Below the pieces are notes generated by a model that searched no databases, had not been told where the DNA came from, and saw nothing but the letters and a program-made list of their open reading frames with translations. DNA of 35,113 nt, from positions 57,972-93,084 of the forward strand of contig CAMYJO010000015.1 in assembly GCA_947258755.1 (NCBI GenBank), written 5' to 3'. Shown in pieces: positions 1,978 to 24,877 of this stretch (position 1 is its first letter; each line of letters starts with the position of its first letter). This DNA is from an uncultured Gammaproteobacteria bacterium. GTDB taxonomy: Bacteria; Pseudomonadota; Gammaproteobacteria; JAADHQ01. A program made the position numbers and the translations under genes.

Positions 1978-2001
1978 CAGTTTTGAACAGAGTAGTTGTT
2001 T

Positions 2002-2556
2002 ATGATTAGAAAATTGTTACTAGTTTCCGCATTACTGTCTGGCTTCATGCTGACGCCGACGCTCGTTCATGCCGAAGATCCGAGGTTTGCGGTCGTCAAT
2101 GTTGCCAAGGCCCTGGAAGAATCGCCACAGGCGGTCGCCGCCAATAAAAGGCTGGAGATTGAATTCGCACCGCGTAACCAGGTCTTGCTGACAATGCGCA
2201 AGAAGTTACGAGAATACGAAGATAGAGTGGCCAAGCAGGGCATGCAGATGAGCGAGGCTCAACTACGAGAGCTTGAACGCAATGTGCATGATACCAAACG
2301 ACAGATCCGCAGAGCGCAGGAAGATTATCGTGAAGACCTCAATATTCGACGCAACGAAGAATTGAGAAAACTGCAGAAAAGAGTCAAGCGCGCCATCATA
2401 ACCGTCGCCGCAGAAAAGAATTACGATATCGTTATGGGTGAAGGTGTATTGTATTCATCTCCCCGTGTCGACATTACTGGTGAGATACTTAAGGTGTTGG
2501 AAAAGGAATTTAAAAGCGCACCCTCAGCTGCATTCGACAACGATGCTGATAACTAA
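2002..2556 (+). CDS. skp: Periplasmic chaperone Skp (OmpH family)
   Basis: Trimeric periplasmic chaperone that holds unfolded outer-membrane proteins on their way to BamA. The protein has 184 residues from the ATG at 2002; an in-frame TTG at 1996 is possible but less likely. It starts with a signal peptide ([14 protein letters not shown]..., cleavage near VHA|ED), then a short beta strand ([15 protein letters not shown]). A long charged coiled-coil arm follows, about residues 50-130, rich in R, K, E and Q, and a closing strand ([13 protein letters not shown]). Length is slightly above the E. coli protein. It lies directly between bamA and lpxD, as in most gammaproteobacteria, and is probably co-transcribed with them. 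Confidence 0.95.
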
Positions 2557-2573
2557 TAAATGGGGGTAATTCC

Positions 2574-3590
2574 TTGGGATATACCCTGCAAGAACTCGCA
2601 GATGCAATTGACGGCATAGCGCACGGATCTGCCAAGAACCCAATTGACAGTGTTGCCACGATCTATAATGCCGGTGCCGGTAGCATAAGTTTCCTGGCTA
2701 ATCGCGGCTATTACAAATACCTGTCCGATACCCATGCCGAGGCCATCATCCTGGCCGAGCAAGACCTGGAAAAGTGTCCGGTACCTGCCATTGTGGTTAA
2801 AAACCCTTATCTTGCCTATGCCAAAATAGCCACGCTGCTAAACCCGCCAGTACAAGCTATTCAAGGCTTACACCCGAGTGCCAGCGTCGCTGCAGATGCG
2901 AGTGTGCATGCCAGTGTGGCGGTGGCTGCCAATGCAGTAATCGAATCGGGAGTATCGATTGCCGAAGGTTGTACTATCGGCCCCGGTTGTGTTGTCGGTA
3001 GCAATGTCACGATTGGTAAAGCGACGGTGTTGGTGGCCAATGTAACGCTGTGTCATGACGTCGTCATCGGCGCCAGGGTCATTCTACATCCGGGTGTGGT
3101 GATCGGCGCGGATGGCTTTGGTATCGCCAATGATGAAGGCGAGTGGATCAAGGTACCGCAACTGGGTTCGGTCAATATTGCCGACGATGTCGAGATTGGC
3201 GCCAATACCACTGTCGACCGAGGCGCACTGGAAGATACGATTATAGAACAAGGTGTGAAGCTCGATAACCAGATTCAAGTGGCACATAATGTTATCATTG
3301 GTGAGCATACGGCCATCGCCGGCTGTACCGGGATTGCCGGTAGCACCCATATCGGTAAGCATTGTGCCATTGGCGGTGCTGTCTCGATTGTCGGTCATCT
3401 TGAAATTGCCGATAAAGTACAGATAACAGCGGCCTCGACAGTCACGCAAAGCATCAAGGAGCCGGGCTTGTATTCATCAGGTACGCCATTGCAACAAAAC
3501 GGGCATTGGCACAGAAACTTTGTTCGCTTTCGTCAGCTCGACGAAATGGCAAAAAGAATTCGTAAACTTGAAAAACAAATTGAAAAATAA
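2574..3590 (+). CDS. lpxD: UDP-3-O-(3-hydroxyacyl)glucosamine N-acyltransferase LpxD
   Basis: Third step of lipid A synthesis: adds an acyl chain from acyl-ACP to the 2-amino group of UDP-3-O-acylglucosamine, in the cytoplasm. 338 residues, close to the E. coli 341. The N-terminal uridine-binding domain (about residues 1-100, with the typical [10 protein letters not shown] segment) is followed by a left-handed parallel beta helix of hexapeptide repeats. The catalytic His is residue 238, in [11 protein letters not shown]. The C-terminus ends in the usual helix ([14 protein letters not shown]). The only start that preserves the family N-terminus is TTG at 2574; the ATG at 2560 is in another frame. 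The upstream GGGGGTAA run is a plausible ribosome binding site. 17 bp separate it from skp. Confidence 0.96.
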
Positions 3591-3608
3591 AGTAGCAGGA
3601 TAATTTAT

Positions 3609-4067
3609 ATGTCGTCTGAAAAAACTATGGATATACATGCCATATTAAAACATTTGCCTCACCGCTATCCCTTCCTATTGATAGATCGGGTAACGGATTA
3701 TAAGGAAGGTGAATACCTTAGTGCCTACAAGAATGTGACCTATAATGAAAATTATTTTACCGGTCATTTTCCAATTCGTCCGGTTATGCCGGGTGTGCTA
3801 ATTCTGGAAGCATTGGCACAGGCCACAGGTATCCTGGCATTTAAAACCAATGGTACCTTGCCAACAGATAAGTCGCTTTACTATTTTGTCGGCATCGACA
3901 AGGCCCGTTTCAAGCAACCGGTGGAGCCGGGCGATCAATTGGTGCTTGAAGTGAAGCTGACTAAAAAGAAAGGCCCGATGTGGAAATTTTCAGCTGAGGC
4001 CAAGGTCGATGGCAAGGTGGTCACATCAGCCGAGCTGATGTGTGCGGAAAAGGACATAGATACTTGA
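3609..4067 (+). CDS. fabZ: (3R)-hydroxyacyl-ACP dehydratase FabZ
   Basis: Hot-dog-fold dehydratase that converts beta-hydroxyacyl-ACP to trans-2-enoyl-ACP in fatty acid elongation. Its location between lpxD and lpxA is the canonical one, balancing 3-hydroxyacyl-ACP between phospholipid and lipid A synthesis. 152 residues. The family signature [13 protein letters not shown] is present at about residues 15-27, and the catalytic His and Glu are in [20 protein letters not shown]. The start is ATG 3609 with an AGCAGGA-like site upstream; an in-frame ATG at 3627 would give a slightly shorter protein. The stop codon overlaps the TTG start of lpxA (TTGA), implying translational coupling. Confidence 0.97.
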
Positions 4068-4834
4068 TACATGAAACCGCCATTATCGACCCGGGCGCAC
4101 GTCTTGCCGACGGTGTGGAAGTAGGGGCGTACTCGATTATCGGTGCCGATGTGGAGATAGGCAAGGGCACTGTCATCGGCCCCCACGTCGTTGTCAAAGG
4201 CCCTTGCAAGATCGGTGAAGACAATCGTATCCTGCAATTTTCCTCTGTGGGTGAAGATCCACAAGACAAGAAATTCGCAGGTGAGCCGACACTGCTGGAA
4301 ATCGGCGACAGAAACCTTATTCGTGAATCCTGCACCATCAACCGCGGCACCACACAAGGCGGCGGCACGACCAAAATCGGTTCCGATAACTGGATCATGG
4401 CCTATGTCCATATCGCCCATGACTGTATCCTCGGTAACCATACCATCCTCGCCAATGGCACCACCTTTGCCGGTCACGTAACTGTTGAAGATTATGTTAT
4501 TCTCGGTGGCTTCACCATGGTGCATCAATTTTCGGTGCTCGGTAAGCATTGTTTCACGTCTATCAATAGTGTCGTGCTGAAAGATATTCCTCCTTATGTG
4601 ATGGTGTCCGGGCAACCGGCTGTGCCGCATGGCCTGAATACTGAAGGCCTGAAACGTCATGCCTTCACAGCAGAAAAAATCAAGGAAATTAAACAGGCTT
4701 ATAAACTCCTGTATAAATCGAATTTGCTATTTAAGGACGCCAAGGAACAAATAAAGTCCATGGGTGAATCATCAGAGGAGCTAAAACATTTTTCCCAGTT
4801 CCTTGAAAACAGTCAGCGTGGAGTTGTCAGATAA
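4064..4834 (+). CDS. lpxA: UDP-N-acetylglucosamine O-acyltransferase LpxA
   Basis: First committed step of lipid A synthesis: transfers 3-hydroxyacyl from ACP to the 3-OH of UDP-GlcNAc, as a cytoplasmic homotrimer. With the TTG at 4064 as start the protein is 256 residues and its N-terminus ([14 protein letters not shown]) aligns with other LpxA proteins. A GTG further upstream at 4040 would add eight residues the family does not have. The left-handed beta helix is clear, and the catalytic region [12 protein letters not shown] carries the conserved His. The [13 protein letters not shown] segment begins the helical C-terminal domain. It overlaps fabZ by four bases. Confidence 0.95.
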
Positions 4835-4859
4835 ATTCTGACATGCAATAAGCCGGGCC

Positions 4860-6005
4860 ATGGTCTGTATCGCACTTGTCGCAGGTGAAGCATCCGGAGA
4901 TCTGCTCGGCGCCTCGCTGATAAACGCATTAAAAGATAAATACCCGCAGGCGGAATTCATCGGCATTGGCGGCCCGGAAATGATCAAGGCGGGTTGCGAA
5001 TCGCTCTACCCAATGGAAGCCCTGTCGGTCATGGGGCTGGTCGAAGTCCTAAAGCACTTGCCGTCACTATTAAAAATGCGTGCACAACTCTATGCGCGCT
5101 TACTGGAAAAGAAACCGGATGTCTTTATTGGTATCGACGCCCCGGACTTTAACCTGGCCCTGGAGCGTAAACTCAAATCCAGTGGTATCAAAACCGTTCA
5201 TTATGTCAGCCCATCGGTCTGGGCCTGGCGCCAATGGCGGGTCAAGAAAATCGCCAGATCTATCGACCTGATGTTGACCCTGTTTCCGTTTGAAGTCTCT
5301 TTTTATCAACAACATGAGGTCAAGGCCGTTTTTGTCGGTCATCCGTTGGCGGACATGGTGCCCATGCAAGTCGATCAGGCGCAGGCGCGCACACAGGTTT
5401 ACCCAGACAATGACAAACGCCTGGTGGCGATGTTGCCGGGCAGCCGTATCAGCGAGCTGGAGCGGTTGGCCGAAGTGTTTATACGAACGGCCGAACAATG
5501 CAGCAAAAACGCACCGGACCTGGAATTCATTGTGCCCTTCGCCAATGACAAAACAAGGCGTTATTTTCAGGATGTAGTCGACAGACTGAAAACACAGGCC
5601 AACATCACAACTATCCTGGGCCAATCGCGCCTGGTTATGCAGGCCAGTGATGCTGTGTTACTGGCCTCGGGCACGGCGGCCCTTGAGGCCCTGTTGCTGA
5701 AACGACCGATGGTGGTCGCCTACAAATTATCAGGGCTCACCTATTGGTTATTGAAGACCTTCAGGATTCTTAAGGTGTCGTTGTACTCATTGCCGAACCT
5801 GCTGGCAGGAAAAAAAATAGTCGAAGAATTCATCCAGAAGGATGCCCGGCCTGAAATGATAGCACCCGCATTGCTGACATTATTGGATGAAGAACATTCC
5901 AATCAGGCATTACTAGCGACCTACGATGACATTCATCGATCGCTTAAAAAAGAAGCCAGTCAAGAAGCCGCCAATGCCATCGCCGCATTGATGGATAAGG
6001 AATAA
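4860..6005 (+). CDS. lpxB: Lipid-A-disaccharide synthase LpxB
   Basis: Glycosyltransferase (GT19, GT-B fold) that joins 2,3-diacylglucosamine-1-phosphate and UDP-2,3-diacylglucosamine to make the lipid A disaccharide at the inner face of the cytoplasmic membrane. 381 residues, matching the E. coli 382. The N-terminal signature ALVAGEASGDLLGA is present, as is YVSPSVWAWRQWRVKKIA in the middle. The C-terminal nucleotide-sugar part contains the expected LLASGTAALEALLLKRPMVV. ATG at 4860; the ribosome binding site is weak. It follows lpxA by 25 bp and precedes rnhB by 7 bp. Confidence 0.97.
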   Translation: MVCIALVAGEASGDLLGASLINALKDKYPQAEFIGIGGPEMIKAGCESLYPMEALSVMGLVEVLKHLPSLLKMRAQLYARLLEKKPDVFIGIDAPDFNLALERKLKSSGIKTVHYVSPSVWAWRQWRVKKIARSIDLMLTLFPFEVSFYQQHEVKAVFVGHPLADMVPMQVDQAQARTQVYPDNDKRLVAMLPGSRISELERLAEVFIRTAEQCSKNAPDLEFIVPFANDKTRRYFQDVVDRLKTQANITTILGQSRLVMQASDAVLLASGTAALEALLLKRPMVVAYKLSGLTYWLLKTFRILKVSLYSLPNLLAGKKIVEEFIQKDARPEMIAPALLTLLDEEHSNQALLATYDDIHRSLKKEASQEAANAIAALMDKE

Positions 6006-6012
6006 TTGAAAT

Positions 6013-6609
6013 ATGTATGATGAAGACAAGGAATACCCATTACTAACCGCAGGCGTCGATGAAGTAGGACGTGGCCCTTTGGCCGGACCCGTGGTCGCAG
6101 CCGCCGTGATCCTCGACCCGAATAAGCCAATCGAAGGCCTGGCTGACTCAAAAAAATTGAGTGAAAAGAAACGCGAAGCCCTGTACCCAATCATCAAGGA
6201 AAATGCCTTGTACTTTTCAGTAGCTGAGGCCAGTGTCGAGGAGATCGACCGCATCAATATCCTCCAGGCCAGTCTGCTGGCGATGCAACGTGCGATCGAG
6301 GGGCTAGGGGTCTTACCTGAACATGTATTGGTCGATGGCAATAAGGCGCCCAATGTCAGCATGTCGGTCGATACCGTTGTTAAAGGTGATAGCCGCGTAG
6401 CCTCCATCAGTGCTGCCTCGATTATTGCCAAAGTAGATCGGGACCGGATGATGCACGAGTACCATCAACGCTATCCGCAGTTCTCCTTTCATAAACACAA
6501 GGCCTATGGTTCTAAGCAGCATCTTGCTGAATTGCTGGAACATGGGCCTACTCCGGAACATCGCAAGACCTTTGCGCCGGTGCGTAGATTGCTGGGTGAA
6601 GGCGGTTAG
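6013..6609 (+). CDS. rnhB: Ribonuclease HII
   Basis: Cleaves the RNA strand of RNA-DNA hybrids and 5' of single ribonucleotides misincorporated in DNA. 198 residues, the usual size. The active site acidic residues are visible in [15 protein letters not shown] (Asp and Glu near residues 16-17), in VLVDGNKAP and in AKVDRDRMM. The C-terminus ([20 protein letters not shown]) is typical. It is the last gene of the conserved envelope operon. In many gammaproteobacteria dnaE follows, but here the sequence changes to a decayed accessory region. Confidence 0.97.
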
Positions 6610-10884: not shown

Positions 10885-11611
10885 CTATAAGCTTTTCGTA
10901 ACTACCCAAAGCACACCAAACAATATCGGTTGATGTAACATATAAATCCACAAGCTATACCTGCCAGCCCAATTTAAAGTAGTAATCTGACTAAGTCTGT
11001 TTCGCATATACAGGACTTGTTGACCTTTTTGGGTATGCAGAAGCAGGTGCCCCATCGTAATGCCACATAACACCACACCCAGCCAGGGTATCAGCGGTAC
11101 ATAATCCTCGGTCAACGGCCGGTGTGTCATTAAGCCTATCCAGTGAAGTGCAGGGTGATTAAACAAGGTGAGGGTGATGCTATTACCGACTGCAACCAAC
11201 AGAAGTCCTGTGATCAGGCTGTAGATGGGATGTTTGACAAACGGAATAGCTAATAGACTGGCAACGGCAATGAAATGCAGGATACCGAACCAAATCGTAC
11301 GGCCTGGAAACAAAAAATAGGACACGATAGTGATAGATAACTGCGGAGCAGGCCAGTAATATTAAAATGCGCTTGAGTGCATGGTTCCAACGTATACCCT
11401 GATGGTGGGCCAGCATCAGGCTAATGCCTACCAGTAACAGGAACAGGGTGATGATGAATGTACGGAAATGAAGCCAGAAAATCTCATGGTGAAATTCGAT
11501 AGAAACAAAACGGAAATGATCTAGGTCATAGCAGAAATGATAAATCACCATCAATAGCACAGCGAATCCACGCATGCTGTCAATGAAATAGGAACGACGG
11601 TTCGGCGCCAT
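10885..11611 (-). pseudogene. DUF1624-type membrane acyltransferase, frameshifted (copy 2)
   Basis: The minus-strand gene starts at ATG 11611 with RRSYFIDSMRGFAVLLMVIYHF, the typical start of the DUF1624 / heparan-alpha-glucosaminide N-acetyltransferase-like family (an RxxxxDxxRGxAxxxMxxxHF pattern). It continues in frame to about 11330. The match then moves to another frame, SYFLFPGRTIWFGILHF, and runs to the stop at 10885 with the same C-terminal half as copy 1. One extra base in the CTATCACTATC segment explains the shift. Both halves together would give a normal protein of about 240 residues with several membrane helices. Unless this is a sequencing error the gene is inactive. Confidence 0.75.
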
Positions 11612-12056: not shown

Positions 12057-12842
12057 TTATAGTTTGTTTAATTCAGATAGTGCATGCTCTGCCGTTTGAT
12101 AACGGTCAGTGCTATCGTCAGCCAGGAGTTTATCGATGAATGTATGATACCTTGGGTCGATGTCATCTAAGTCTAATGAGACCGGGTTGGCGGCCATCGG
12201 CAGCCGGTCTTTATTTGTTTGCCCCGTGTTTCTACGTTGCCCCGTTAACATCTCATAGAAGATTAATCCGGCTTGATAGAGGTCGCTTTGCTGTCCCCAT
12301 TGATGCCCTTGGGCCTGCTCGGGTGACAGGTAGGCATGTTTGCCAATCCAGGTGTGCGCGCTATCTTGCTGTTCATTGAGTTTACAGGCACAACCAAAAT
12401 CGATCAGATGCACTGTCCCCTGTGTAGCCACAATAATATTGTCGGGCGTAATATCGGAATGGATAATGGTATTTTCGTTTTTATGTAGGGAAGAAAGGGC
12501 CGTTAACAATTGTCGGAGAATGTCAGTACTTTGTTCTATTGATAGAGATTGGGCATTGATAATCTCGGTTAGGTTAACGCCGTCAATATACTGATAGGCA
12601 AAGTAGGGTCGTTTACTTGATAGGTTGCTTTTTATAAAAGTGGGTGTGTGGTCACTTTGTAAAGAACGAAGGATATCGGCTTCATTGGTGAATCGCTCCT
12701 TTAAAGCCACCTGGTCACAGAAATCAGGTTTTAGGCTTTTGACGACTAGCGTATTTTTTGATTTAACCAGGAAAAGCTGGCTAATACTACCGTTGAAATA
12801 CGGGTTGATATCTATCGAATCGGAATATATCAAATGTCCCAT
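12057..12842 (-). CDS. Hanks-type Ser/Thr protein kinase
   Basis: 261 residues comprising little more than a kinase domain. Visible elements are the invariant Lys in TLVVKSLKP, a C-helix Glu in FTNEADIL, the hinge YQYIDGVNLTEII, the catalytic loop HSDITPDNIIV (HRD is HSD, so a non-RD kinase), the metal-binding LIDFGCA and the SPE motif in HAYLSPEQAQG. A glycine-rich loop is poorly preserved. No membrane segment or sensor domain is seen. ATG at 12842 with AAGGAA upstream. It overlaps the end of the Lnt-like gene by 13 bases, implying co-translation. Its likely partners are the FHA-domain proteins of the divergent Tad locus and downstream, since FHA domains bind phosphothreonine; this is inferred from proximity. 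Confidence 0.88.
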   Translation of the reverse strand: MGHLIYSDSIDINPYFNGSISQLFLVKSKNTLVVKSLKPDFCDQVALKERFTNEADILRSLQSDHTPTFIKSNLSSKRPYFAYQYIDGVNLTEIINAQSLSIEQSTDILRQLLTALSSLHKNENTIIHSDITPDNIIVATQGTVHLIDFGCACKLNEQQDSAHTWIGKHAYLSPEQAQGHQWGQQSDLYQAGLIFYEMLTGQRRNTGQTNKDRLPMAANPVSLDLDDIDPRYHTFIDKLLADDSTDRYQTAEHALSELNKL

Positions 12843-14836
12843 GGTCTTTTCCTTGTCGACAGGGTTATTATTTTACCAGTCCACTTTTGCATAAATGCAG
12901 CAGTTTTAATGGCTAGTAACTCGGCGTAGTAAGGTGAGAAGAATATTACGCCGTTGTCTGTAAATTCTGTAATGACCACGCTTTCACCTGATGATAATAG
13001 TGTCAGGCAGGGTGTCTTAATATTTTGTAGCGTGTTTGCGTGTACATGTGTTAATTCTTTACTGGTTGTTGAATAATCAAATCTGTCGAAGATACTGCTT
13101 ATATCAATTGTGCCATCAGTCCTGGTGCTGACTAGGTTGATAGGACTCAATTCCTCCCTAAGAAGGCTTAGATTGACATTATTACCAAAGTGCCTGAGTA
13201 AATAGGTAATTGCGGATAACATACTTTCATCAGGGGTGCTGGCTTTGAGCTGTGCATAGCTGTAGCTACCATTCCCATGTTGTTGCTGAAAATTAACAAA
13301 GCTTGCCGGTAATACGTCACCACTGTTGCCCTGATAAAGGTGACGCATATAGAAATGTTGAAATATAAGCACGCAGCACATTAAAGCAGCCGCAATTATA
13401 AAATGCCTCGATTTTGCAGACTGACGTGGTAATCGCCCTTTAGAGGAGGTTAGGCAAGTTATTAGGAAAATGAATATTGCCAGAGTGGATAATATCCAGA
13501 ATGTAGTTAAAACGCTGTGATAATGCCTGACAAAGAATGTCATTGAATAATCAGGTTGTATGCGAGCGTTTATTATCCCGCTTTTGAATAAACCGAGTCG
13601 TTTGTCTATTCGACCATCGGCTGTAATTACTGCCGATGGTCCTGCATTAGCGGCCCTGATGACAGTCTTACCGGTTTCAACGGCACGAAGTTTCGAAAAC
13701 TGCAGATGGAGCTCAGGTAGTATTGACGGACCGGCATAGGCATCATTGGTGGCCAGTGAAAGAAAACCAGCGCCGGTCTTAGATAATAGGGCTGCGGGTT
13801 GGGTGAAAATAGACTCATAACAAATGAGACTTCCGGGACGACCCGGTAATTTATCATGAATCGTCCAATATCCAGGGCCGCGTGATTCATTTTCAAGGAA
13901 GGGTATCAGGATATTTTTATCGTATCTATTGAGTACAGTACCAGAACTAGAGATAGAGAATATCGAGTTGAAAACTTGTCCCGAAGGGGACAAATCTGGG
14001 CTCGCAACCAACATGCTAACGCCATGTGCATCTGCTTGCTGTTTAATACTGTCCTTCTTGCGGAATTCGAATTTAGCCAAACTAACTTCAGGCCAAATGA
14101 TTAAATTTGGTTTTATAGTCGCATTCACAACGGTCATCAGTAGTTTATTGCGCTGAATTGATAACTCTTCCAACATATTGTCAGAGGCAATCGCAACCGT
14201 ATCGCGCGGGTGGGCATTCGTCTGTATTATGCTGGCGTTGATTACATCTTCTGACAGTGAGGGCTTGTGAGAAAACAAAATAGAGAATAAGAAAGCGCAG
14301 GCTATTGTGGCTATCATGCTTGCGGGTAGTGTTATGCTTGAATTGCTTGATAGTCGTATTGAAAGCACAATGAGTGCTACCTGAAACGCAATAAGTAAGA
14401 AGCTCAGTGCATATTGACCACCAAACTGAGCTGGCAATAATAGTGTGGGTGACGCTGTTAGCGGGATTACCAGTGTCACAGGTAGGTTAAAGGTTTCGAG
14501 TGATAATTCAATAAAGACCCATAGCAAAGGCACTATAAGGATCGCTAACGCCACTTTGTTATAAATCATTAACATTGCGCAATACAGGAACACGGTAAAA
14601 AGCACAGAAAAAATTAATACCATTGCCAGGTAGGCATAGATATCATAAGCCCAGGTACCGAAATAACTGTAGCTGGACACAATCAGTGCAAACAGGAATC
14701 CGTCCTGGATCAGCAGTCTGCGATGTTGATCTTCACGGTTTACTAATAAGGGAATAAGAAAAAAACAACCGATGATCGGGATACTAAAAGGTGGTAATGA
14801 TCCGAGGAAGAGTAATGATGAAAGGATAATGTGCAC
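12830..14836 (-). CDS. Apolipoprotein N-acyltransferase-like protein with C39-peptidase-like C-terminal domain
   Basis: 668 residues from a GTG at 14836. The first 200 residues hold several membrane helices. A nitrilase-type CN-hydrolase domain follows (about 215-440), with the catalytic Glu in LIIWPEVSL, Lys in RYDKNILIPF and Cys in SLICYESIF. The additional essential Glu residues of Lnt (after IPF, and in CYE) and the LRAVETGKTVIRAANAG segment are also present. Canonical Lnt ends soon after at about 510 residues. Here another membrane helix (HFIIAAALMCCVLIFQHF) leads to an extra 140-residue domain. That domain has features of a C39 peptidase (ITYLLRHFG, an IKTPCLTLL strand, VVITEFTDNGVIFFSP) but no Cys in the catalytic position. 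It may be a second Lnt paralogue that modifies a specific lipoprotein. It forms a minus-strand operon with the kinase. Confidence 0.8.
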   Translation of the reverse strand: MHIILSSLLFLGSLPPFSIPIIGCFFLIPLLVNREDQHRRLLIQDGFLFALIVSSYSYFGTWAYDIYAYLAMVLIFSVLFTVFLYCAMLMIYNKVALAILIVPLLWVFIELSLETFNLPVTLVIPLTASPTLLLPAQFGGQYALSFLLIAFQVALIVLSIRLSSNSSITLPASMIATIACAFLFSILFSHKPSLSEDVINASIIQTNAHPRDTVAIASDNMLEELSIQRNKLLMTVVNATIKPNLIIWPEVSLAKFEFRKKDSIKQQADAHGVSMLVASPDLSPSGQVFNSIFSISSSGTVLNRYDKNILIPFLENESRGPGYWTIHDKLPGRPGSLICYESIFTQPAALLSKTGAGFLSLATNDAYAGPSILPELHLQFSKLRAVETGKTVIRAANAGPSAVITADGRIDKRLGLFKSGIINARIQPDYSMTFFVRHYHSVLTTFWILSTLAIFIFLITCLTSSKGRLPRQSAKSRHFIIAAALMCCVLIFQHFYMRHLYQGNSGDVLPASFVNFQQQHGNGSYSYAQLKASTPDESMLSAITYLLRHFGNNVNLSLLREELSPINLVSTRTDGTIDISSIFDRFDYSTTSKELTHVHANTLQNIKTPCLTLLSSGESVVITEFTDNGVIFFSPYYAELLAIKTAAFMQKWTGKIITLSTRKRPWDI

Positions 14837-15038: not shown

Positions 15039-15317
15039 ATGAAGTGCTTCAAAAATTCTACTTTTGTAGGAAAAATCCGACAAAGAGGACAGGGAATGTC
15101 TGAATACCTGATTATTGTTGCCCTAATTGCTGTTGCTGCTATCGGTGTAGTAGGCTTTATGGGTGATACAGTCAGTAATCAGATGGCTAGTATGGCAAAG
15201 GAAATATCCGGCGGTGATGGATCTGCTGCCACAACTGCATCGCAAACCGCTGCTGACAATGCTGAGACCAAGGCCAAAACCGGTAAAACCATGGCGACTT
15301 TCGCGTCTGGTAACTAA
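15039..15317 (+). CDS. flp: Flp/Tad major pilin
   Basis: 92 residues from the ATG at 15039, chosen because AAAGGAGAG sits at the right distance; an in-frame ATG at 14991 lacks such a site and would give an unusually long leader. The class III prepilin signature is clear: RQRG|QGMSEYLIIVALIAV, with Gly at -1, Glu at +5 and Tyr at +6 of the mature pilin, then a hydrophobic helix. The C-terminal tail is polar and rich in Ala, Thr and Lys. Mature pilin would be about 75 residues. It is the first gene of the Tad locus and is followed by a strong hairpin, as expected for a pilin made in excess over the assembly proteins. Confidence 0.92.
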   Translation: MKCFKNSTFVGKIRQRGQGMSEYLIIVALIAVAAIGVVGFMGDTVSNQMASMAKEISGGDGSAATTASQTAADNAETKAKTGKTMATFASGN

Positions 15318-15413: not shown

Positions 15414-16622
15414 ATGAGAAAATACCGAAGAAATTTACCAAGCTGTCAGAAAGGACAGGCTCTAATACTGGCCATTTTCCTGGTTCTGGCAACAACAATG
15501 ACGGCCGTATTGATGTACAACAACGGTCAGACTACCTCAGAAAAGACACGCCTGGTCAATGCGGCCGATGCGGCTGCCTACAGTGGGGCAGTATTTGTCG
15601 CACGAAGCCTTAATTTCCTTGCTTATACCAATCGAGCCATGATCGCCAATCATGTGGCGGTTGGCCATTTTGTTAGTTATGTTTCGTGGTTAAGGTATGT
15701 TGAGGATTCTATAAGCGAGCTGGATAAATATACAAAGTTTGTACCCTATATTGGTCAGGCAGTTGCCTATGTCGAGCAAGTGATGGAATATTTAAAAGAA
15801 GGGACAGAAACAGTCGCGCCTTTCATTGTTCAGGGCGCAGATGCCTTAAACAAGATTATGCATACCGCACAGAAATTTAGTCAGGTTACCATGAATGGCG
15901 TGATGTCGCCTGCTACTACACTTAAGTTCAGGTTAATGGATAAGGTGGTAAAGACCTACGACCCTAATATCCGTGTAAATTACAAAAAGGATATTAAAAA
16001 TGAGGGTGGTGGAATAACGGCACTACAGGTCGGTACCGATATTGCCAAGACCTTGCAGTATATTAAAAAATACAAGGCTGGTGATGACAAGGGCCGCATG
16101 AAAAAGATGGTCGAAACCAGCTATGATATATCCAGGCCATGGATAGTGGGTGATCGTGGCTGGAAAGTTAATCTTGTCGCCTTTAAATTACAGAAAAGCG
16201 GCAGTACCAGTCATACGTTGACTAAGAATGATTCCGACTGGAAAGCTAAAGATTCCTTGGTATATAAGTGGTGGACTGTCAAAGGTTGGAAAAGTACGGT
16301 TGTTGCAGATGGCGAGGCCAGTGCAACTGAATTTGCCGATGACTATAAAGGGATTCCAGGTTACTATGATCTAAGAAAAACGGGCAAGGATGCAGCTCAA
16401 ACCCTGAATATTTCAGCACTAGCGACGATGCCGATCGAAAGTACTCGATTTATGGAGCTTATGGGGATGAAGTCGGGCGCCCAACGATTAGCGGCACTGT
16501 CCAGAGCTGAGATTTTTCATGACAGGCCCGAAAAGGGTTTCACAAAATTCAAGAAGGGGGAGTATTCGAACCTGTACAACCCATTCTGGCAAGTTAGGTT
16601 GACCGAGAATCAAGTTAAATGA
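15414..16622 (+). CDS. TadG/TadE-like pilus assembly protein
   Basis: 402 residues from the ATG at 15414; in-frame starts at 15393 and 15402 are also possible. The N-terminus matches the TadE/G-like family: a basic stretch, then KGQALILAIFLVLATTMTAVLMYNN as a single membrane helix, and NAADAAAYSGAVFVARSLNFLAYTNRAMIANH, a hallmark of these pseudopilin-like proteins. Unlike the TadE-like proteins nearby it lacks Glu at +5 after the Gly, so it may not be processed. The long C-terminal domain, probably periplasmic, has no other recognised motif. Its stop overlaps the next start (ATGA). Confidence 0.75.
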   Translation: MRKYRRNLPSCQKGQALILAIFLVLATTMTAVLMYNNGQTTSEKTRLVNAADAAAYSGAVFVARSLNFLAYTNRAMIANHVAVGHFVSYVSWLRYVEDSISELDKYTKFVPYIGQAVAYVEQVMEYLKEGTETVAPFIVQGADALNKIMHTAQKFSQVTMNGVMSPATTLKFRLMDKVVKTYDPNIRVNYKKDIKNEGGGITALQVGTDIAKTLQYIKKYKAGDDKGRMKKMVETSYDISRPWIVGDRGWKVNLVAFKLQKSGSTSHTLTKNDSDWKAKDSLVYKWWTVKGWKSTVVADGEASATEFADDYKGIPGYYDLRKTGKDAAQTLNISALATMPIESTRFMELMGMKSGAQRLAALSRAEIFHDRPEKGFTKFKKGEYSNLYNPFWQVRLTENQVK

Positions 16623-17509: not shown

Positions 17510-17521
17510 TGGAGGATGCAA

Positions 17522-18415
17522 ATGGAACTTGCAAAACACAACAAGTGCAGTAAAAAAATTAAACAGAGAGGCGCAGCGACAACAGAGTTTCTGGTGTCGT
17601 TGGCATTCTTTGTGCCACTCTTTGTCACCGTGCCTGTCATTGGCAAGTATCTATCATTCAAGCAGAAAAATATTGAATCCAATCGCTATGCAGTTTGGGA
17701 AAGGACTGTATGGTCAGATGAGGACGGTCGTTGGAACGATAACGAAAATACCAAATCCGACGAAGGTCTGGCCAAGGAGCTTGATAGACGTATGTATGGA
17801 AACCAGATACAGGGAATAGCCAGTAACGAAATTACTGAGAATTTACTCTGGAAGGATAGTCAAAATAATAAAATGCTCGCGCTTGCTCCAAAGGGTAAAC
17901 ATAGGGTATCTGTTAAAGTCTCATCTGCTGAATCACCCAGTACTGATTGGGCAACGGCAAATCTCGCATATAAGGGCATCCCGTATGTCGGTAAGGGCCT
18001 AAACAAAATAACCGATGTGGTTAATGCCACGATAGGCAATCTGGTGTCTGATTGTAAGGATGTGCCGGGTGTTGATTTTGAAAAGGGCATGAATCTAGGC
18101 TCTAAAAACTACGCAAGTATTACAGTCGCTGCAAACCTTAAGGATTTAGTGTCAAAGCAAAAAGTGAAAACAGATAAGAAAAACAATATGACCTTTTCTG
18201 CAAGTGGCTCGATACTTTCAAATGCATGGACTGCTCCAACAGAGGCTATTTTTAACGACAGAGTGAATAAATTAGTTATTGATGAAACCGTTCGGTGTAT
18301 TGCTTCACCAGCGCGAATCGTGTCAGCATTTCCTATCTACAAGGAAGGAAAAGATGCAAAGAATGTTGCTTCTGCTGGTAAAAGTACTGTACTTCTAGAT
18401 ACCTATAAAAAATGA
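17522..18415 (+). CDS. TadE-like pseudopilin
   Basis: 297 residues from the ATG at 17522, six bases after a GGAGG site; the ATG at 17516 directly abuts that site and is less likely. The N-terminus IKQRG|AATTEFLVSLAFFVPLFVTVPVIG fits the TadE pseudopilin pattern, with Gly at -1 and Glu at +5 followed by a hydrophobic helix. After it come SFKQKNIESNRYAVWERTVW and a long polar domain with KVSSAESPSTDW and two Cys residues (VSDCKDVPG, TVRCIAS). Minor Tad pilins of this kind are thought to sit at the pilus tip or base. Four-base overlap with the next gene. Confidence 0.78.
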   Translation: MELAKHNKCSKKIKQRGAATTEFLVSLAFFVPLFVTVPVIGKYLSFKQKNIESNRYAVWERTVWSDEDGRWNDNENTKSDEGLAKELDRRMYGNQIQGIASNEITENLLWKDSQNNKMLALAPKGKHRVSVKVSSAESPSTDWATANLAYKGIPYVGKGLNKITDVVNATIGNLVSDCKDVPGVDFEKGMNLGSKNYASITVAANLKDLVSKQKVKTDKKNNMTFSASGSILSNAWTAPTEAIFNDRVNKLVIDETVRCIASPARIVSAFPIYKEGKDAKNVASAGKSTVLLDTYKK

Positions 18416-19104
18416 ATACAAGACTTAATATTTCAGTTTTCCTGTTGTTCGTGCTTTTATGCGGCGCGGCCCGGTCCGAGGGGCTGTCTGGCATTCATAT
18501 GCCAGGATTTGAAGTAATGAATGGAATGAAGACAGAATGGGTGGCAAAAAAAATGATTTATAACGGCCATCCTATGACTATTCAGAATTTTAGTGCGCAT
18601 AAGAGTGCTGAATATGTCATGCAGCATTATGCTTCAAAGTGGAAGCTCAAAGGCCATGGAGAGTTAAAGCATCAGCGTGTCGGCGAAGATATGACCATAG
18701 GCTATGAGCATAACGGCTACAGTTACTCAGTGCAGGCGCGGGACACACTAGGAGGCAGTGAAGGCTCATTGGTCGTCACGCGAAACAAGGCATTTGAGCA
18801 GGGCGCAGTAAAGTTCCCGCTGTATCCAGAAGCACAGCTGGTTTCCAGAATTCAGAGTATTGATATGGGAAAACGTTCAGAAACGCTGACGCTAAGCACG
18901 TATCAATCAGCATCTATGGTCCGTAATTGGTATAGCTCGACATTATCTCGCAATGGCTGGATTACCCAGGAGTCACTGCCAACGAATGGTAATGGCGTCA
19001 TGGCCTTTCAAAAAGACAGGGCGCAATGTCAATTAACTATCATCGACAAGAGCCCTGTTAGAAATCACCAATCCATGATCATGATTCATTGGGTGAAGGG
19101 GTAA
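18412..19104 (+). CDS. Hypothetical exported protein of the Tad locus
   Basis: 230 residues with a signal peptide (MNTRLNISVFLLFVLLCGAARS|EG). The mature part appears to contain two related halves, each with a surface-exposed helix followed by a tryptophan-containing strand: SAEYVMQHYASKWKLKGHG, and later SASMVRNWYSSTLSRNGW. These resemble small domains in which a helix packs on a sheet. No family name can be given. Its ATG overlaps the stop of the TadE-like gene, so it belongs to the same operon. It may be a periplasmic accessory to the minor pilins. Confidence 0.7.
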   Translation: MNTRLNISVFLLFVLLCGAARSEGLSGIHMPGFEVMNGMKTEWVAKKMIYNGHPMTIQNFSAHKSAEYVMQHYASKWKLKGHGELKHQRVGEDMTIGYEHNGYSYSVQARDTLGGSEGSLVVTRNKAFEQGAVKFPLYPEAQLVSRIQSIDMGKRSETLTLSTYQSASMVRNWYSSTLSRNGWITQESLPTNGNGVMAFQKDRAQCQLTIIDKSPVRNHQSMIMIHWVKG

Positions 19105-19282: not shown

Positions 19283-20071
19283 ATGGCTGTCAATAAAGGA
19301 ACTGCAATATTATTAGTGGGTGCAATAAGTAGCGGTGGTGGTGCTGCTTATTTTACGGATGATTATATCAGTAACAAGGTTCAGAACGAACAGCAACGAC
19401 TTTCCGAGCAATACAAGCCTACTAAAGTTGTTGTCGCCAAGAACAACTTGCGTGTCGGTGATGTATTGAGTTATGACAATCTCGCGATTCGTGAAATGCC
19501 TGCAGGTTATTTACACGCTTCCGCAGTACGACAGGAAAATGCTGATTTTGTCGTTGGAAAAAGGATTATGCAGCCTGTCAATGCAGGCGAGTCCCTGTTA
19601 GATAATTTCCTGGCATCGCGGACGAATAGTGGCTTCTCAAATTTGATCGAGGTTGGCGAGAGAGCAATTACTTTTCCGGTCGATATCGTTTCGTCGATGT
19701 CTGGGTTACTACGCCCTGGTGATAAAATCGATTTGATGGTCACATTGAAGCAAGGGAGAAATGTGACCATGCCATTACTCAAAGATGTCACGATATTGGC
19801 AACAGGTGCGATTGTTGATGAAGAAGGGCTGTTGGCTAATGATGGCTCTTATCAAGCCATCACTATATCGGCAACACCACTGAATGCAGCCAAAATAACA
19901 CACGCGCGCCAGGTCGGTAATATGACCGTGGTGCTGCGTTCCGGTAAGAAGGAAGATGGTGAGAGCGTATCGAATGAACTAACGCAACCTGTTACTGTGC
20001 AAAACCTGTTTGGTGAGACTAAAAAGAAGATTAGGCGAGCTCCGAGTGTTGAAATAATTGTAGGCGGATAG
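19283..20071 (+). CDS. cpaB: Flp pilus assembly protein CpaB/RcpC
   Basis: 262 residues with an N-terminal membrane helix (ILLVGAISSGGGAAYF). A SAF domain follows at about residues 45-105 (KVVVAKNNLRVGDVLSYDNLAIREMP ... GKRIMQPVNAGESLL), then the RcpC/CpaB domain (ERAITFPVDIVSSMSGLLRPGDKIDLMVT). CpaB is a periplasmic component that works with the CpaC secretin in Flp pilus secretion. TAGGAG lies upstream of the ATG at a good distance. The order cpaB-cpaC-tadA-tadB-tadC is conserved, except that the usual tadZ/cpaE between cpaC and tadA is absent here. Confidence 0.93.
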   Translation: MAVNKGTAILLVGAISSGGGAAYFTDDYISNKVQNEQQRLSEQYKPTKVVVAKNNLRVGDVLSYDNLAIREMPAGYLHASAVRQENADFVVGKRIMQPVNAGESLLDNFLASRTNSGFSNLIEVGERAITFPVDIVSSMSGLLRPGDKIDLMVTLKQGRNVTMPLLKDVTILATGAIVDEEGLLANDGSYQAITISATPLNAAKITHARQVGNMTVVLRSGKKEDGESVSNELTQPVTVQNLFGETKKKIRRAPSVEIIVGG

Positions 20072-20079
20072 ATATAAAC

Positions 20080-21405
20080 ATGGATGATTTTATGCAAAAC
20101 ACCTGTAAAGGATATAGGGTAACTCTATTATTAATATGTTTGTTTGTGATTGCTACGCCGGTTGTAGCAGCTACTGATAGATACGAAGAAGTGTTGGAGA
20201 TATATGTTGGTCAAACTGAGATATTATCTCATAGTAATGTATCCAGGGTGTCAATTGGCAGTGGCGACTTAGCCAGTGTCAAGGTTCTGCGAGATGCAGA
20301 ACAAATACTACTCATCGGTAAAAAGGTTGGGCTGACTGATCTCAGGGTCTGGATGCGTAACAAGCTGCAAAAGCACTATTTGCTGCGTATCTTGGACCAG
20401 CCGCCTGAAGTTGCAATGGAGCAAGTCAAAAAACACCTGTCTGATATCGAAGGTGTCTCGATAAAACTGGTTGGAGACCAAATTGTAGTAGAGGGCTCGA
20501 GTCTTCGTAAGACTGATCAGCTCAGAGTCGAGGCTGTTAGTAAGCAATTTCCGAATGTGACCAGCTATGTTACTGATGGTGGCATAACCCTTCGCAGCAT
20601 GATTCATATGGATGTGAAGGTAGTTGAAGTCAAGAAAAATGAGCTTAAGCGTATCGGTATCAATTGGGCGGATGTCATTAATGGGCCGCAGTATGCGGTT
20701 TTTAATGATTACGTCACTAATAACGTGTTCAGGCCTGTACCGGATATAGATATCACCAATCCAGGAACTCTGCCGCCTGACCTCGGTTCAAGTAATCCGT
20801 ATTTTGGTATAGCCACCAATCTCACCTCGGTGATTAATTTAATGGCCAATGATGGTAATGCCAGATTGCTAGCAGAACCACAGCTCACCTGCCGTAGTGG
20901 TGGTAAAGCAGAATTTCTCGCCGGAGGTGAAGTCCCTTTGCCCATTAGGAACAACGATGGCTCGGTCAGTGTTACGTTTAAGCAATATGGCATTATCCTG
21001 AAAATTGAACCGGAATCGGACCCGGATGGCTATATATCTACTCACGTCAGTGTCGAGATCAGTACCGTTGATGATTCGATCAAGGTACTGGACATACCTG
21101 GATTTCTGACCCGTAAGACAGAGACAGACATGAATGTAAAACAGGGTGAGACCATGGTCATATCAGGACTGGTGAATACGGATTCAGCAAAAGCAGTGGA
21201 TAAATTACCCGGCCTGGGAAATATACCGATATTGGGAGAGCTATTTAAATCACGCTCATTTAAAAATAATGAGACTGAGATGGTTATCCTGGTGACACCG
21301 CATATTATTGACCCCGAACACAAAATCAACAAACGCTGGATCCAGCGTGCTGGCGAACTTAGGGAACAAAGCAATAAAGACCAGGAATTTAATATACTGG
21401 ATTAG
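20080..21405 (+). CDS. cpaC: Tad pilus secretin CpaC/RcpA
   Basis: 441 residues. A signal peptide (LLLICLFVIATPVVAA) precedes an N-terminal pilus-formation domain (VLEIYVGQTEILSHSNVSRVSIGSG ... LIGKKVGLTDLRVW), a BON-like segment, and the secretin core from about residue 250. Core motifs seen are NARLLAEPQLTC, AEFLAGGEVPLPI, GETMVISGLVN and LPGLGNIPILGELFKSRSF, followed by MVILVTPHII. It forms the outer-membrane channel through which the Flp pilus passes. It follows cpaB by 8 bp. An alternative start at ATG 20092 is possible. Confidence 0.94.
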   Translation: MDDFMQNTCKGYRVTLLLICLFVIATPVVAATDRYEEVLEIYVGQTEILSHSNVSRVSIGSGDLASVKVLRDAEQILLIGKKVGLTDLRVWMRNKLQKHYLLRILDQPPEVAMEQVKKHLSDIEGVSIKLVGDQIVVEGSSLRKTDQLRVEAVSKQFPNVTSYVTDGGITLRSMIHMDVKVVEVKKNELKRIGINWADVINGPQYAVFNDYVTNNVFRPVPDIDITNPGTLPPDLGSSNPYFGIATNLTSVINLMANDGNARLLAEPQLTCRSGGKAEFLAGGEVPLPIRNNDGSVSVTFKQYGIILKIEPESDPDGYISTHVSVEISTVDDSIKVLDIPGFLTRKTETDMNVKQGETMVISGLVNTDSAKAVDKLPGLGNIPILGELFKSRSFKNNETEMVILVTPHIIDPEHKINKRWIQRAGELREQSNKDQEFNILD

Positions 21406-21414
21406 GGACGCGAT

Positions 21415-23115
21415 ATGATTGAACTGTATGTACAACACGAGAACGGACAGTCAGTAAGGCATGATCTGAATGCTGGCAAGCATTGTATGGGGAAGGCGAC
21501 GGATGCTGATATTGTGCTCACAGATCCGTTCGCCTCTAAATACCATGCTGAACTACACGTAACACTGGACGGTGTCTTTATAAATGACCTGGGCAGCACC
21601 AACGGCACCTGGATGAATGATAATAAAATAAGTGATAACAAACTACTGTCAGACGGCGATACGTTTAATATAGGTAATCTGTCTATTACCACAAAAATAG
21701 GCTCGCAAACCCAACAGCAGCAGCCAGCTCAAGGTCAGCAAGTAAATCAAATAACGGATGCATCATCCGGGACTAATGTCTATACGCTTCCTGATAGGAA
21801 GGGTGACGATCAACTGTATGAATTCAGAAAAAAGGTTCATATGCTGGTCCTCGAACATCTTGATATGTATAAGCGTACGACCATGCACAATATGAGCTCT
21901 TCTGAATTGCGGGAAGAGGCTAAGAATTCAGCTCGTGAGGTCATTAAGAAAAGCAAGATCGAAATACCCAAGGTCAAACCCGAAGATGACATCATCAATG
22001 AGATAGTCGCTGAGGCCATCGGTCTGGGACCTCTTGAGGTCTTGTTAGCTGACGACACAATAACTGAGATTATGGTCAATGGCCCAAATGACATTTATAT
22101 AGAACAGTCAGGGAAATTGATTAAATCGGATGCTTATTTTAACAGTAGTGAATCATTACTCAGTATTATCGAGCGTATCGTTACGCCTCTAGGCAGGCGT
22201 ATCGATGAAGGTTCACCTATGGTCGATGCGCGTCTGGAAGATGGTTCTCGTGTAAATGCCATTATTCCACCACTATCATTGATTGGTCCGGTGGTAACAA
22301 TACGAAAATTCCCGAAATACCGTTTCTGCATTGATGATCTGGTCAAGATGGGATCAATGACACAGGATATGGCAGATTTTCTGGAAGTATGTGTTGTCAA
22401 TAAAAAGAATGTTGTGGTCTCAGGCGGAACGGGTTCAGGAAAGACAACCACATTAAATATTCTGTCAAACTTTATTCCCACCAATGAGCGTATTGTCACT
22501 ATCGAGGATGCGGCTGAGCTGCAGCTTGGACAAGATCATGTCATTACCCTTGAGAGCCGACCATCGAATGCGGAAGGTAAAGGTTTAATCGCTATTCGTG
22601 ATCTGGTCAAAAATTCGTTACGTATGCGCCCAGATAGAATAGTGGTTGGTGAGTGTCGCGGCGGTGAGGCCATCGACATGTTACAGGCGATGAATACCGG
22701 CCATGACGGCTCATTAACGACCGGCCATGCCAATTCACCTAGAGATTTCCTATCGAGATTGGAAGTTATGGTCTTGATGTCTGGAATTGATCTGCCGGTC
22801 AGGGCGATACGAGAACAAATAACCTCGGCAGTCGACATCATCATACAGCAGACCCGTTTTAGTGATGGCAAACGACGCATCACCAGTATTGTCGAAGTAG
22901 ATGGCATGGAAGGTGATGTCGTATTACTGCAAAAGATATTCGAGTTTAAAAGGAAAGGGAAAACGGCAGACGGAATTATTACCGGTGAGTACTCTGGTTG
23001 TGGTTATGCCCCGACGTTTTATAAAGAACTGGAAGATGCCGGGCTGGATCTAGATAGAGGTATATTTGGTGAAAAGGACTTTCTTAATGAGCAGAAACCC
23101 TCCTGGGAGTCATAG
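21415..23115 (+). CDS. tadA: FHA-domain fused Tad secretion ATPase (TadA/CpaF)
   Basis: 566 residues, longer than a plain TadA because of an N-terminal FHA domain. FHA (about 1-95): GKATDADIVLTDPFASKYHAEL contains the Ser-x-x-His-like phosphopeptide-binding pattern in the form SKYHAEL, and GSTNGTWMN carries the conserved NG. A Gln-rich linker (residues about 100-115) leads to the ATPase. It shows ADDTITEIMVNG, Walker A GGTGSGKTTT from Gly337, the Asp box IVTIEDAAEL, the Walker B region RPDRIVVGECRGGEA and the His box LTTGHANS. The protein is the hexameric motor for Flp pilus extension, and in some Tad systems also retraction. The fusion suggests control of the motor by threonine phosphorylation of a partner. 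It is 9 bp after cpaC and overlaps tadB. Confidence 0.94.
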   Translation: MIELYVQHENGQSVRHDLNAGKHCMGKATDADIVLTDPFASKYHAELHVTLDGVFINDLGSTNGTWMNDNKISDNKLLSDGDTFNIGNLSITTKIGSQTQQQQPAQGQQVNQITDASSGTNVYTLPDRKGDDQLYEFRKKVHMLVLEHLDMYKRTTMHNMSSSELREEAKNSAREVIKKSKIEIPKVKPEDDIINEIVAEAIGLGPLEVLLADDTITEIMVNGPNDIYIEQSGKLIKSDAYFNSSESLLSIIERIVTPLGRRIDEGSPMVDARLEDGSRVNAIIPPLSLIGPVVTIRKFPKYRFCIDDLVKMGSMTQDMADFLEVCVVNKKNVVVSGGTGSGKTTTLNILSNFIPTNERIVTIEDAAELQLGQDHVITLESRPSNAEGKGLIAIRDLVKNSLRMRPDRIVVGECRGGEAIDMLQAMNTGHDGSLTTGHANSPRDFLSRLEVMVLMSGIDLPVRAIREQITSAVDIIIQQTRFSDGKRRITSIVEVDGMEGDVVLLQKIFEFKRKGKTADGIITGEYSGCGYAPTFYKELEDAGLDLDRGIFGEKDFLNEQKPSWES

Positions 23116-23117
23116 TG

Positions 23118-23969
23118 ATGTTCTCTGATACCTTATTCCTAATGTTGATGGTGACAATATGCAGCGTTGCGGCATTCGTGTTGATTTATACATTCACCGT
23201 GCACGGAATGAAAATATACAAAACTAACTTTGTCCAGAAGGTAGATCATGGACTCAAAAACATGTTCATGTTCAATGATCCCAAGACCCTGTTTATGTTC
23301 CACATCATCGGTATAGCGGCAGGTGCAATATTAGGCTATCTATATGCAGGTGTATTCGGCTTGGTTACAGGGACGATTATCACGATCCTACTACCCAGTA
23401 TCATCTTAAAAAGATTAAAGAAAAATCGGATTAAAAAGTATATTTACCAGTTGCCCGACGCCTTGAACTCTATATCCGCATCACTACGAGCAGGCACTAA
23501 TCTCGCCAAAGCCATGCAGCAAATTGCCGAGCAGCAACCCGCGCCGATCTCTCAGGAGTTCACAGTTATTTTGTCTGAATATAAAATGGGTCGTCAGCTG
23601 GAAGACTCCTTGATGGATATGTACAAGCGCATCAATAGACAAGAGGTCGATCTACTTATTTCAGCTATTTCAATCTCAAGAAGTGTCGGTGGTAATCTTG
23701 CCGATACACTGGAGACACTAGCGAAAACTTTACGCGAAAAGGCACAAATAGAGGGAAAAATAGAAGCATTAACGGCCATGGGCAGAATGCAGGGCTGGGT
23801 GGTCGGGCTCATCCCGGTAGCCGTCATGCTGATGTTGCGTAAGCAAGAACCCGAGGGGATGAATGCCTTATTCAATGAATTAGCCGGTTGGGCAACACTG
23901 GCCGTCATTGCCGTGCTGATGACAATCGCCGTTCTGATGATCCGAAAAATTGTGAATATAGATATATAA
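23118..23969 (+). CDS. tadB: Tad pilus inner-membrane platform protein TadB
   Basis: 283 residues from ATG 23118; GTG at 23115 overlaps the tadA stop and is also usable. It has an N-terminal membrane helix (LMLMVTICSVAAFVLIYTF), a hydrophobic pair at about residues 55-95, and the cytoplasmic T2SSF domain: YQLPDALNSISASLRAGTNLAKAMQQIA, ISRSVGGNLADTLETLAKTLREK, then MGRMQGWVVGLIPVAVMLM. Two or three terminal membrane helices close the protein. TadB and TadC form the platform that couples TadA to the pilus. Confidence 0.93.
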   Translation: MFSDTLFLMLMVTICSVAAFVLIYTFTVHGMKIYKTNFVQKVDHGLKNMFMFNDPKTLFMFHIIGIAAGAILGYLYAGVFGLVTGTIITILLPSIILKRLKKNRIKKYIYQLPDALNSISASLRAGTNLAKAMQQIAEQQPAPISQEFTVILSEYKMGRQLEDSLMDMYKRINRQEVDLLISAISISRSVGGNLADTLETLAKTLREKAQIEGKIEALTAMGRMQGWVVGLIPVAVMLMLRKQEPEGMNALFNELAGWATLAVIAVLMTIAVLMIRKIVNIDI

Positions 23970-23971
23970 CC

Positions 23972-24877
23972 ATGCAATCAGTCGCCTACATTCCAATGTT
24001 TATGGTGTTTACCTCGCTGGTATGCATTGCACTGGTGATTGAGCATTATGTCAGGAACAGGGATCGTAATAATGATCAATCCTGGCGCGATAAATCGCCA
24101 TTAATGTTCAGGATGGTTAGACCTATAGTCAATATGTTTACCGTTAAAGTGACTGAGTCTATCGATCAACATAAGCTGTCCATATTGAAAGACCGCTTGA
24201 GTAGTGCCGGTATGAGCTATGCAATACGCCCAGAGGAATTTATTGTCACCAAACGGGTGTTTCTTGCTATAGGCTTGCTCATGTTCTTCTATGTCTACTT
24301 TATGTTAGAGCTGACCAGTTCTACCGTGATAACTGTCGTCGCGGTCATAATCCCGCTGGGTTATTTTTATCCGGACATCTGGCTAAGAGATCAGATCAAG
24401 TTGCGCCACCATAACTTCAGCAAAATGTTCCCATTCTTTCTTGATTTGCTTGTGCTATCCATGCGCGCAGGCCTTAATTTCGCCAGTGCACTCGACCATT
24501 CGGTTGAAAAAATGCCGCTTGGGCCAGTTAAGGATGAATTTACCAAGGTCTTACGTGATACCCGTACGGGCTTAAGCAGAAAAGAGGCGATGGTACGTAT
24601 GTCAGAACGCGTGCAAATGCCGGCCGTCGGTAATTTTGTTTCAGCCGTTAATCAAGCTGAAGAGTCTGGGGGAGAGGTCGGTGAAGTGTTGAGTGTGCAG
24701 GCACAACAACGACGCACAGAGCGTTTTCTAAGGGCAGAGAAATTGGCTAATCAGGCCCCGGTTAAAATGTTGGGCCCTCTTATCGGTTTGTTATTCCCGA
24801 TCACGTTTATCATTATTATGTTCCCGATTTATATCAAAGCAAGAGACTCGGGTTCCTTGGATTTCTTTTTTCAATAG
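23972..24877 (+). CDS. tadC: Tad pilus inner-membrane platform protein TadC
   Basis: 301 residues from ATG 23972, two bases after the tadB stop; the frame stays open upstream into tadB but without support. It contains an N-terminal helix (YIPMFMVFTSLVCIALVIEH), helices at about 95-140 (LLMFFYVYFMLEL, VITVVAVIIPLGYFYP) and the T2SSF motif FPFFLDLLVLSMRAGLNFASALDHSVEKMP. It continues with SAVNQAEESGGEVGEVLSVQAQQRRTERFLRAEKLANQAPVKMLGPL and a C-terminal membrane helix. Paired with TadB in the assembly platform. Confidence 0.92.
   Translation: MQSVAYIPMFMVFTSLVCIALVIEHYVRNRDRNNDQSWRDKSPLMFRMVRPIVNMFTVKVTESIDQHKLSILKDRLSSAGMSYAIRPEEFIVTKRVFLAIGLLMFFYVYFMLELTSSTVITVVAVIIPLGYFYPDIWLRDQIKLRHHNFSKMFPFFLDLLVLSMRAGLNFASALDHSVEKMPLGPVKDEFTKVLRDTRTGLSRKEAMVRMSERVQMPAVGNFVSAVNQAEESGGEVGEVLSVQAQQRRTERFLRAEKLANQAPVKMLGPLIGLLFPITFIIIMFPIYIKARDSGSLDFFFQ

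Follow-up and report, generated by a model that had tools for sequence, protein, structure and literature searches.

Gene organization of the locus

The window analysed here is a stretch of 35,113 nucleotides from an uncultured Gammaproteobacteria bacterium (contig CAMYJO010000015.1), which carries on its reverse strand a gene for an Lnt-like acyltransferase fused to a C39-like domain, together with a protein kinase gene and, on the forward strand, a Tad pilus locus. The main features are as follows, with positions counted from the first letter of the window and residues given for the fusion protein:

12057-12842 (-): Ser/Thr protein kinase, 261 aa (PF00069, 121 bits)
12830-14836 (-): Lnt-like acyltransferase/C39-like fusion, 668 aa, GTG start
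14267-14836 (-): N-terminal membrane region, LNT_N-like TM1-TM7, residues 1-190 (PF20154 and hydropathy)
13517-14239 (-): nitrilase (acyl-enzyme) domain, residues 200-440 (PF00795 and alignment with E. coli Lnt)
13820-13822 (-): Cys339 codon, predicted acyl-thioester nucleophile (alignment with E. coli Lnt)
13346-13402 (-): extra transmembrane helix TM9, residues 479-497, after TM8 and absent from canonical Lnt
12833-13324 (-): C39-like domain without the catalytic Cys, residues 505-668 (PF03412, model and fold matches)
13223-13225 (-): Ser538 codon in place of the C39 cysteine (alignment)
15039-15317 (+): Flp-type pilin, prepilin site GQG/MSEYL, divergent from the fusion gene
15417-16622 (+): TadG-like protein (PF13400)
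17516-18415 (+): pilin-like/TadE-like protein conserved in this locus type
18412-19104 (+): conserved exported protein of 230 aa, no assigned family
19283-20071 (+): CpaB/RcpC
20080-21405 (+): secretin CpaC/RcpA
21415-23115 (+): TadA/CpaF ATPase with an N-terminal FHA domain
23115-24877 (+): TadB and TadC platform proteins
25251-26804 (+): FHA-TM-TPR protein
26822-27298 (+): TadD-like TPR lipoprotein, lipobox LSAC

The GTG start of the fusion gene is supported by two relatives (G001 and G003) that have ATG at the same site. The kinase ORF begins 13 nt within the 3' end of the fusion gene, so that the coupling proposed in the first-pass annotation stands as a gene overlap, and the kinase ATG of both G001 and G003 shares bases with the stop codon of the fusion gene; from this arrangement, translational coupling of the two genes is plausible. 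The kinase keeps K35, H128 and D130 (HxD), N135 and D148-F-G in 9/9 sequences and is linked to the fusion in all members where the contig permits, that of G260 ending before the kinase. A promoter scan around the genes gave matches no more numerous than in shuffles.

The window locus is a class III (FHA) Tad locus, having the Flp pilin, CpaB, secretin, FHA-TadA, TadB, TadC and TadD together, and it is the FHA-fused CpaF that marks class III (PMC12019362). It resembles the class III Tad systems and the Kil system of Myxococcus in its FHA-fused ATPase and further FHA proteins (PMC12019362, PMC8460266), and differs from them in also having a linked kinase gene; a term search of the papers on the Kil system found no acyltransferase or C39 protein. 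The fusion-kinase pair adjoins a full Tad set, from the Flp pilin through FHA-TadA and FHA-TPR to TadD, in the window, G002, G057 and G086, and Tad parts limited by the contigs in G001, G003, G209, G149, G355, G260 and G069, while in G234 the pair adjoins the gene of the 230-aa protein. The dedication to a pilus locus suggested earlier is supported by this linkage, which is seen wherever the contigs allow. The 230-aa protein itself matched no Pfam family above cut-off, and it is also conserved in Tad loci of the same type that have no fusion. An skp-lpxD-fabZ-lpxA-lpxB-rnhB operon (1996-6609, +) lies beside the Tad locus in the window and likewise in G002, G001 and G057; since the last belongs to another family, this common neighbourhood suggests vertical descent of the Tad locus.

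Several other genes of the window deserve mention in their own right. One of them (27339-29531, +) encodes a TadE-like minor pilin joined to a pretoxin-HINT domain plus a C-terminal extension, and an immunity-type gene of the SUKH-1 (SMI1/KNR4) kind comes after it (30155-30577, +). The pair has the look of a polymorphic toxin borne on the Tad pilus tip, for which the Kil system of Myxococcus, Tad-like and used in killing, offers a comparison. An exported ankyrin-repeat protein (31278-32165, +) is encoded next to these toxin and immunity genes. At 10885-11611 (-), a membrane protein gene is spread over two frames that overlap (10885-11325 and 11183-11611); in G002, too, it is matched in two pieces, with frameshift or decay as possible explanations.

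Domain architecture and active site of the fusion protein

The identification of an Lnt-like acyltransferase made from the sequence was confirmed by profile searches, the protein scoring 32.1 bits against LNT_N (PF20154, cut-off 27.1), 67 bits against CN_hydrolase (PF00795) and 160.5 bits against the NCBIfam lnt equivalog TIGR00546 (cut-off 132.9), and 9/9 fusions tested match TIGR00546 at E <= 0.01. The nitrilase domain is followed by two hydrophobic segments, at residues 442-460 and 479-497, the second of which, TM9, is indeed the additional helix that had been noticed. The loop between them has a net charge of +5 and, following the positive-inside rule, the C-terminal C39-like domain is predicted to lie in the periplasm. 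A full-length AlphaFold model built from four sequences reached a pLDDT of 36 and was set aside, the C-terminal domain being modelled with 11 sequences instead (pLDDT 76.9, pTM 0.74).

This domain had been described as resembling C39 peptidases without their nucleophile, and the description agrees with both Pfam and the predicted structure. Peptidase_C39 (PF03412) matches the window domain at 28.9 bits (cut-off 22), and across the 11 fusions five are above the cut-off, two fall below it at E < 0.02 and four divergent members give no match. With the domain model as query, the top 23 PDB matches in Foldseek were all C39 or C39-like domains or transporters containing one, and VIA-align superimposed the model on 6mpz with Z 14.3 (rmsd 2.6, 127 residues) and on the HlyB C39-like domain (3zua) with Z 11.5, which is far from an unrelated fold. 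The C39-like identity rests on Pfam and these fold searches, the depth of the model being 11 sequences. The EpsAB domain is less likely as the true homologue, its structure (4g54) ranking under the C39 structures in Foldseek.

Ser538 occupies the place of the peptidase cysteine in the window protein, and over the 11 fusions this position is Ser in five, Ala in three, Thr in one and Pro in two, and never Cys. The C39 Asp position is mostly Ser in the alignment and the His position is Glu in 9/11, which also sets the fusion domain apart from that of the exporters. Both His and Asp are still present in G355 and the Asp in G069, which fits decay from an active peptidase. Ser as a new nucleophile replacing Cys was considered and rejected, given the variation at its position and the loss of most of the C39 His and Asp residues. 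The C39 domain of PCAT/AMS exporters and the C39-like domain (CLD) of HlyB (6mpz, 3k8u, 3zua) share the fold (Z 11.5-14.3) and the Pfam family with the fusion domain, and the HlyB CLD is Cys-less as well; these, however, are cytosolic and N-terminal on an ABC transporter, whereas the fusion domain is C-terminal on an Lnt-like enzyme and predicted to be periplasmic. A likeness in setting is offered by FapD of the Pseudomonas Fap amyloid system, a periplasmic C39 peptidase beside a fibre-export system, which shows that C39 proteins can work for fibres in the periplasm (PMC5557850). The Cys is still present in FapD, however, which is reportedly proteolytic (PMC5557850) and has no acyltransferase fused to it. 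A single further PF03412 protein was found in the genome, namely a PA2778-family C39 peptidase (NF033920; L023:1051-2046 and 2052-2567), a lipoprotein encoded next to a small membrane protein. It is also an envelope member of the C39 family, but differs from the fusion in its intact Cys, its TPR-like C-terminal part, the lack of an Lnt fusion and its location outside any Tad locus.

The active site was examined in an alignment of 11 fusions with E. coli Lnt and 19 canonical Lnts; G260, whose gene is split over two contigs, was left out of the fusion alignments. By this alignment, E250, K307, E315, C339 and E341 of the fusion correspond to E267, K335, E343, C387 and E389 of E. coli Lnt. The equivalents of E267, E343, C387 and E389 are kept in 11/11 fusions and that of K335 in ten, the exception being G069, which has Gln. 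The equivalent of Y388 is also retained in the window protein. On the other hand, W237, the 345-365 arm (P346/F357/F358) and W415 are missing in all 11, the W415 position being Tyr or Phe, and the spacing between E343 and C387 is 23-24 residues against 42-43 in canonical Lnt. Among the 19 canonical Lnts, W237 is kept in 18 and both P346 and W415 in every one. Over the 55 columns conserved in canonical Lnt, those kept in the fusions group at the chemistry (P266-E267, K335, P340, E343, C387, E389, G417), whereas the lost ones include G229, Q233, K236-W237, Y249, P346 and W415-F416. The claim that all catalytic residues are kept is therefore right for the triad and for E343, Y388 and E389, but not for W237, the arm or W415.

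The fusion is like Lnt (E. coli b0657; TIGR00546; PDB 5N6H, 5XHQ, 6NWR) in being a membrane nitrilase with the E-K-C triad, E343, E389 and the transmembrane scaffold and, by homology, in having a periplasmic active site. It is unlike Lnt in lacking W237 and the 345-365 arm, in having Y/F-A in place of W415-F416, in its additional TM9 and C39-like domain, in its Tad-locus setting and in its separate branch in the tree (see below). For E. coli Lnt, W237 has been described as essential in the second step alone, when the acyl chain is passed to the apolipoprotein, and F358 in the arm is given a similar treatment (PMC6971011). With the acyl-enzyme residues conserved and the second-step elements lost, the simplest reading of the alignment would be that the fusion retains the first half-reaction and has changed its acceptor.

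Distribution and descent of the fusion

The survey for the same fusion and its neighbours found it in 12 of the 369 genomes of the class, spread over six GTDB families and with the kinase and Tad linkage described above. All three genus mates in the collection (gammaproteobacterial MAGs) carry it, at 37-59% identity. The profile search of the 369 genomes found it in G057, G086, G209, G234 and G069, and a search for Tad loci added G149, G355 and G260, all of one family. Beyond the class, a sample of 398 genomes of the phylum gave no additional fusion at E <= 1e-45; the single other match there, G422, was discarded, having canonical Lnt residues and no C39 part. In a maximum-likelihood tree of the Lnt part (without the split G260), a single branch (100/100) separates the 11 fusions from 20 canonical Lnts. 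The fusion lineage is old, and its architecture is not a product of chance, since six families share it together with the kinase and the Tad setting. We regard it as a new subfamily and a new domain architecture of a known kind of enzyme, whose function we infer below.

Regarding the Tad loci, a TadG-like match of this type was present in 14 genomes, near full length in 13 and cut by a contig end in G003. The fusion is found in 12 of these 14 and absent from G276 and G258, as well as from the more remote Tad locus of G350. It seems, then, to be a frequent accessory of this type of Tad locus and not an obligate part of it.

A separate canonical lnt, the presence of which had been raised as a check, does exist in the genome, on contig C21 (LNT_N 135.9 bits, TIGR00546 318 bits), and adjoins corC, a gene order shared with lnt-ybeX of E. 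coli K-12. Strong canonical matches to LNT_N (E < 1e-30) were found in 10/12 fusion genomes, with weak ones in G209 (87% complete) and G069. In the latter, the fusion (L041) has the Gln at the catalytic Lys position and the genome shows no strong canonical match, which may be either a binning gap or a true exception.

Candidate function and its alternatives

Our preferred explanation, to which we give a probability of about one half, is that of an acyltransferase of the Lnt family dedicated to the Tad pilus, which would act on an acceptor other than the standard apolipoprotein N-terminus and hold it by means of the C39-like domain. In the nitrilase domain, Cys339 would take up an acyl chain from a phospholipid of the inner membrane, much as happens in Lnt's first step, and the chain would then pass to this different acceptor, which is probably an exported protein encoded in the Tad locus. 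The C39-like domain of HlyB recruits its unfolded substrate without proteolysis (PMC6363468), and the periplasmic Cys-less domain of the fusion would hold the acceptor in a similar fashion. The probable targets of the co-encoded kinase are proteins recognised by the FHA domains in TadA and the FHA-TPR protein, and their phosphorylation would tie pilus assembly to the acylation step. A toxin-bearing TadE as the general acceptor is unsupported, no TadE following TadD in G057. The Gln at the catalytic Lys in G069 and the loci of G276, G258 and G350 that do without the fusion speak against our explanation, as do the cytosolic substrate binding of the known C39-like domains, the depth of only 11 sequences behind the domain model and the four divergent members that PF03412 does not match.

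The specialised lipoprotein maturation advanced in the first-pass annotation would make the fusion a second apolipoprotein N-acyltransferase, maturing TadD by the ordinary Lnt reaction with the C39-like domain selecting the lipoprotein. It would suit the score above the lnt equivalog cut-off and the lipobox TadD encoded in the loci of G000, G002, G057 and G086, but we consider it improbable: the second-step parts of Lnt have gone from all 11 fusions, a canonical Lnt is already available in the window genome and clearly in most of the others, and the lipobox TadD of G350, in a locus without the fusion, speaks against a dedicated TadD N-acyltransferase. For the same two reasons of residue loss and G350, the acceptor is more likely not a standard diacylglyceryl-Cys lipoprotein. 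Somewhat less probable again is that the acyl chemistry has become vestigial, as could be read from the loss of the catalytic Lys in one member, the absence of the module from some loci and the Foldseek match to the periplasmic domain of EpsAB, below the C39 group. Catalysis is hard to dismiss, however, when four of the five acyl-enzyme residues are invariant despite the identity of only 20-33% that fusions outside the genus mostly show to the window protein. The nitrilase superfamily has hydrolase members, and an active site without the arm could admit water or a small acceptor, which would fit a phospholipid deacylase or an acyltransferase using a lipid or small molecule in place of a protein; leaving both the fused peptide-binding-type domain and the linkage to pilus genes unexplained, this is the least probable of these alternatives.

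Returning to the Tad-dedicated acyltransferase, a more specific and clearly more tentative version of it is that the enzyme lipidates a component of the Tad pilus, or of its tip or secretin complex, other than a lipobox lipoprotein, with the Cys-less C39 domain as its periplasmic substrate receptor; Lnt-type protein acylation would then come in a second form, linked to pilus assembly and to a kinase/FHA switch.

Within the collection of papers searched, no relevant one joined apolipoprotein N-acyltransferase with either the Tad pilus or C39. To our knowledge, Lnt has been associated with one reaction, and the C39-like domains that we know of bind their substrates in the cytosol. By analogy with these, the domain of the fusion may bind substrate in the periplasm, and the family, described chiefly from exporters, would thereby gain a Cys-less C39-like member on the periplasmic side. 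A clade that has kept the acyl-enzyme half of Lnt and swapped the acceptor half for a fused domain of peptide-binding type suggests that Lnt chemistry has been recruited for a different acceptor and that its two half-reactions may become separable in evolution, and it makes the fusion a testable candidate for lipid modification in the biogenesis of the Tad pilus.
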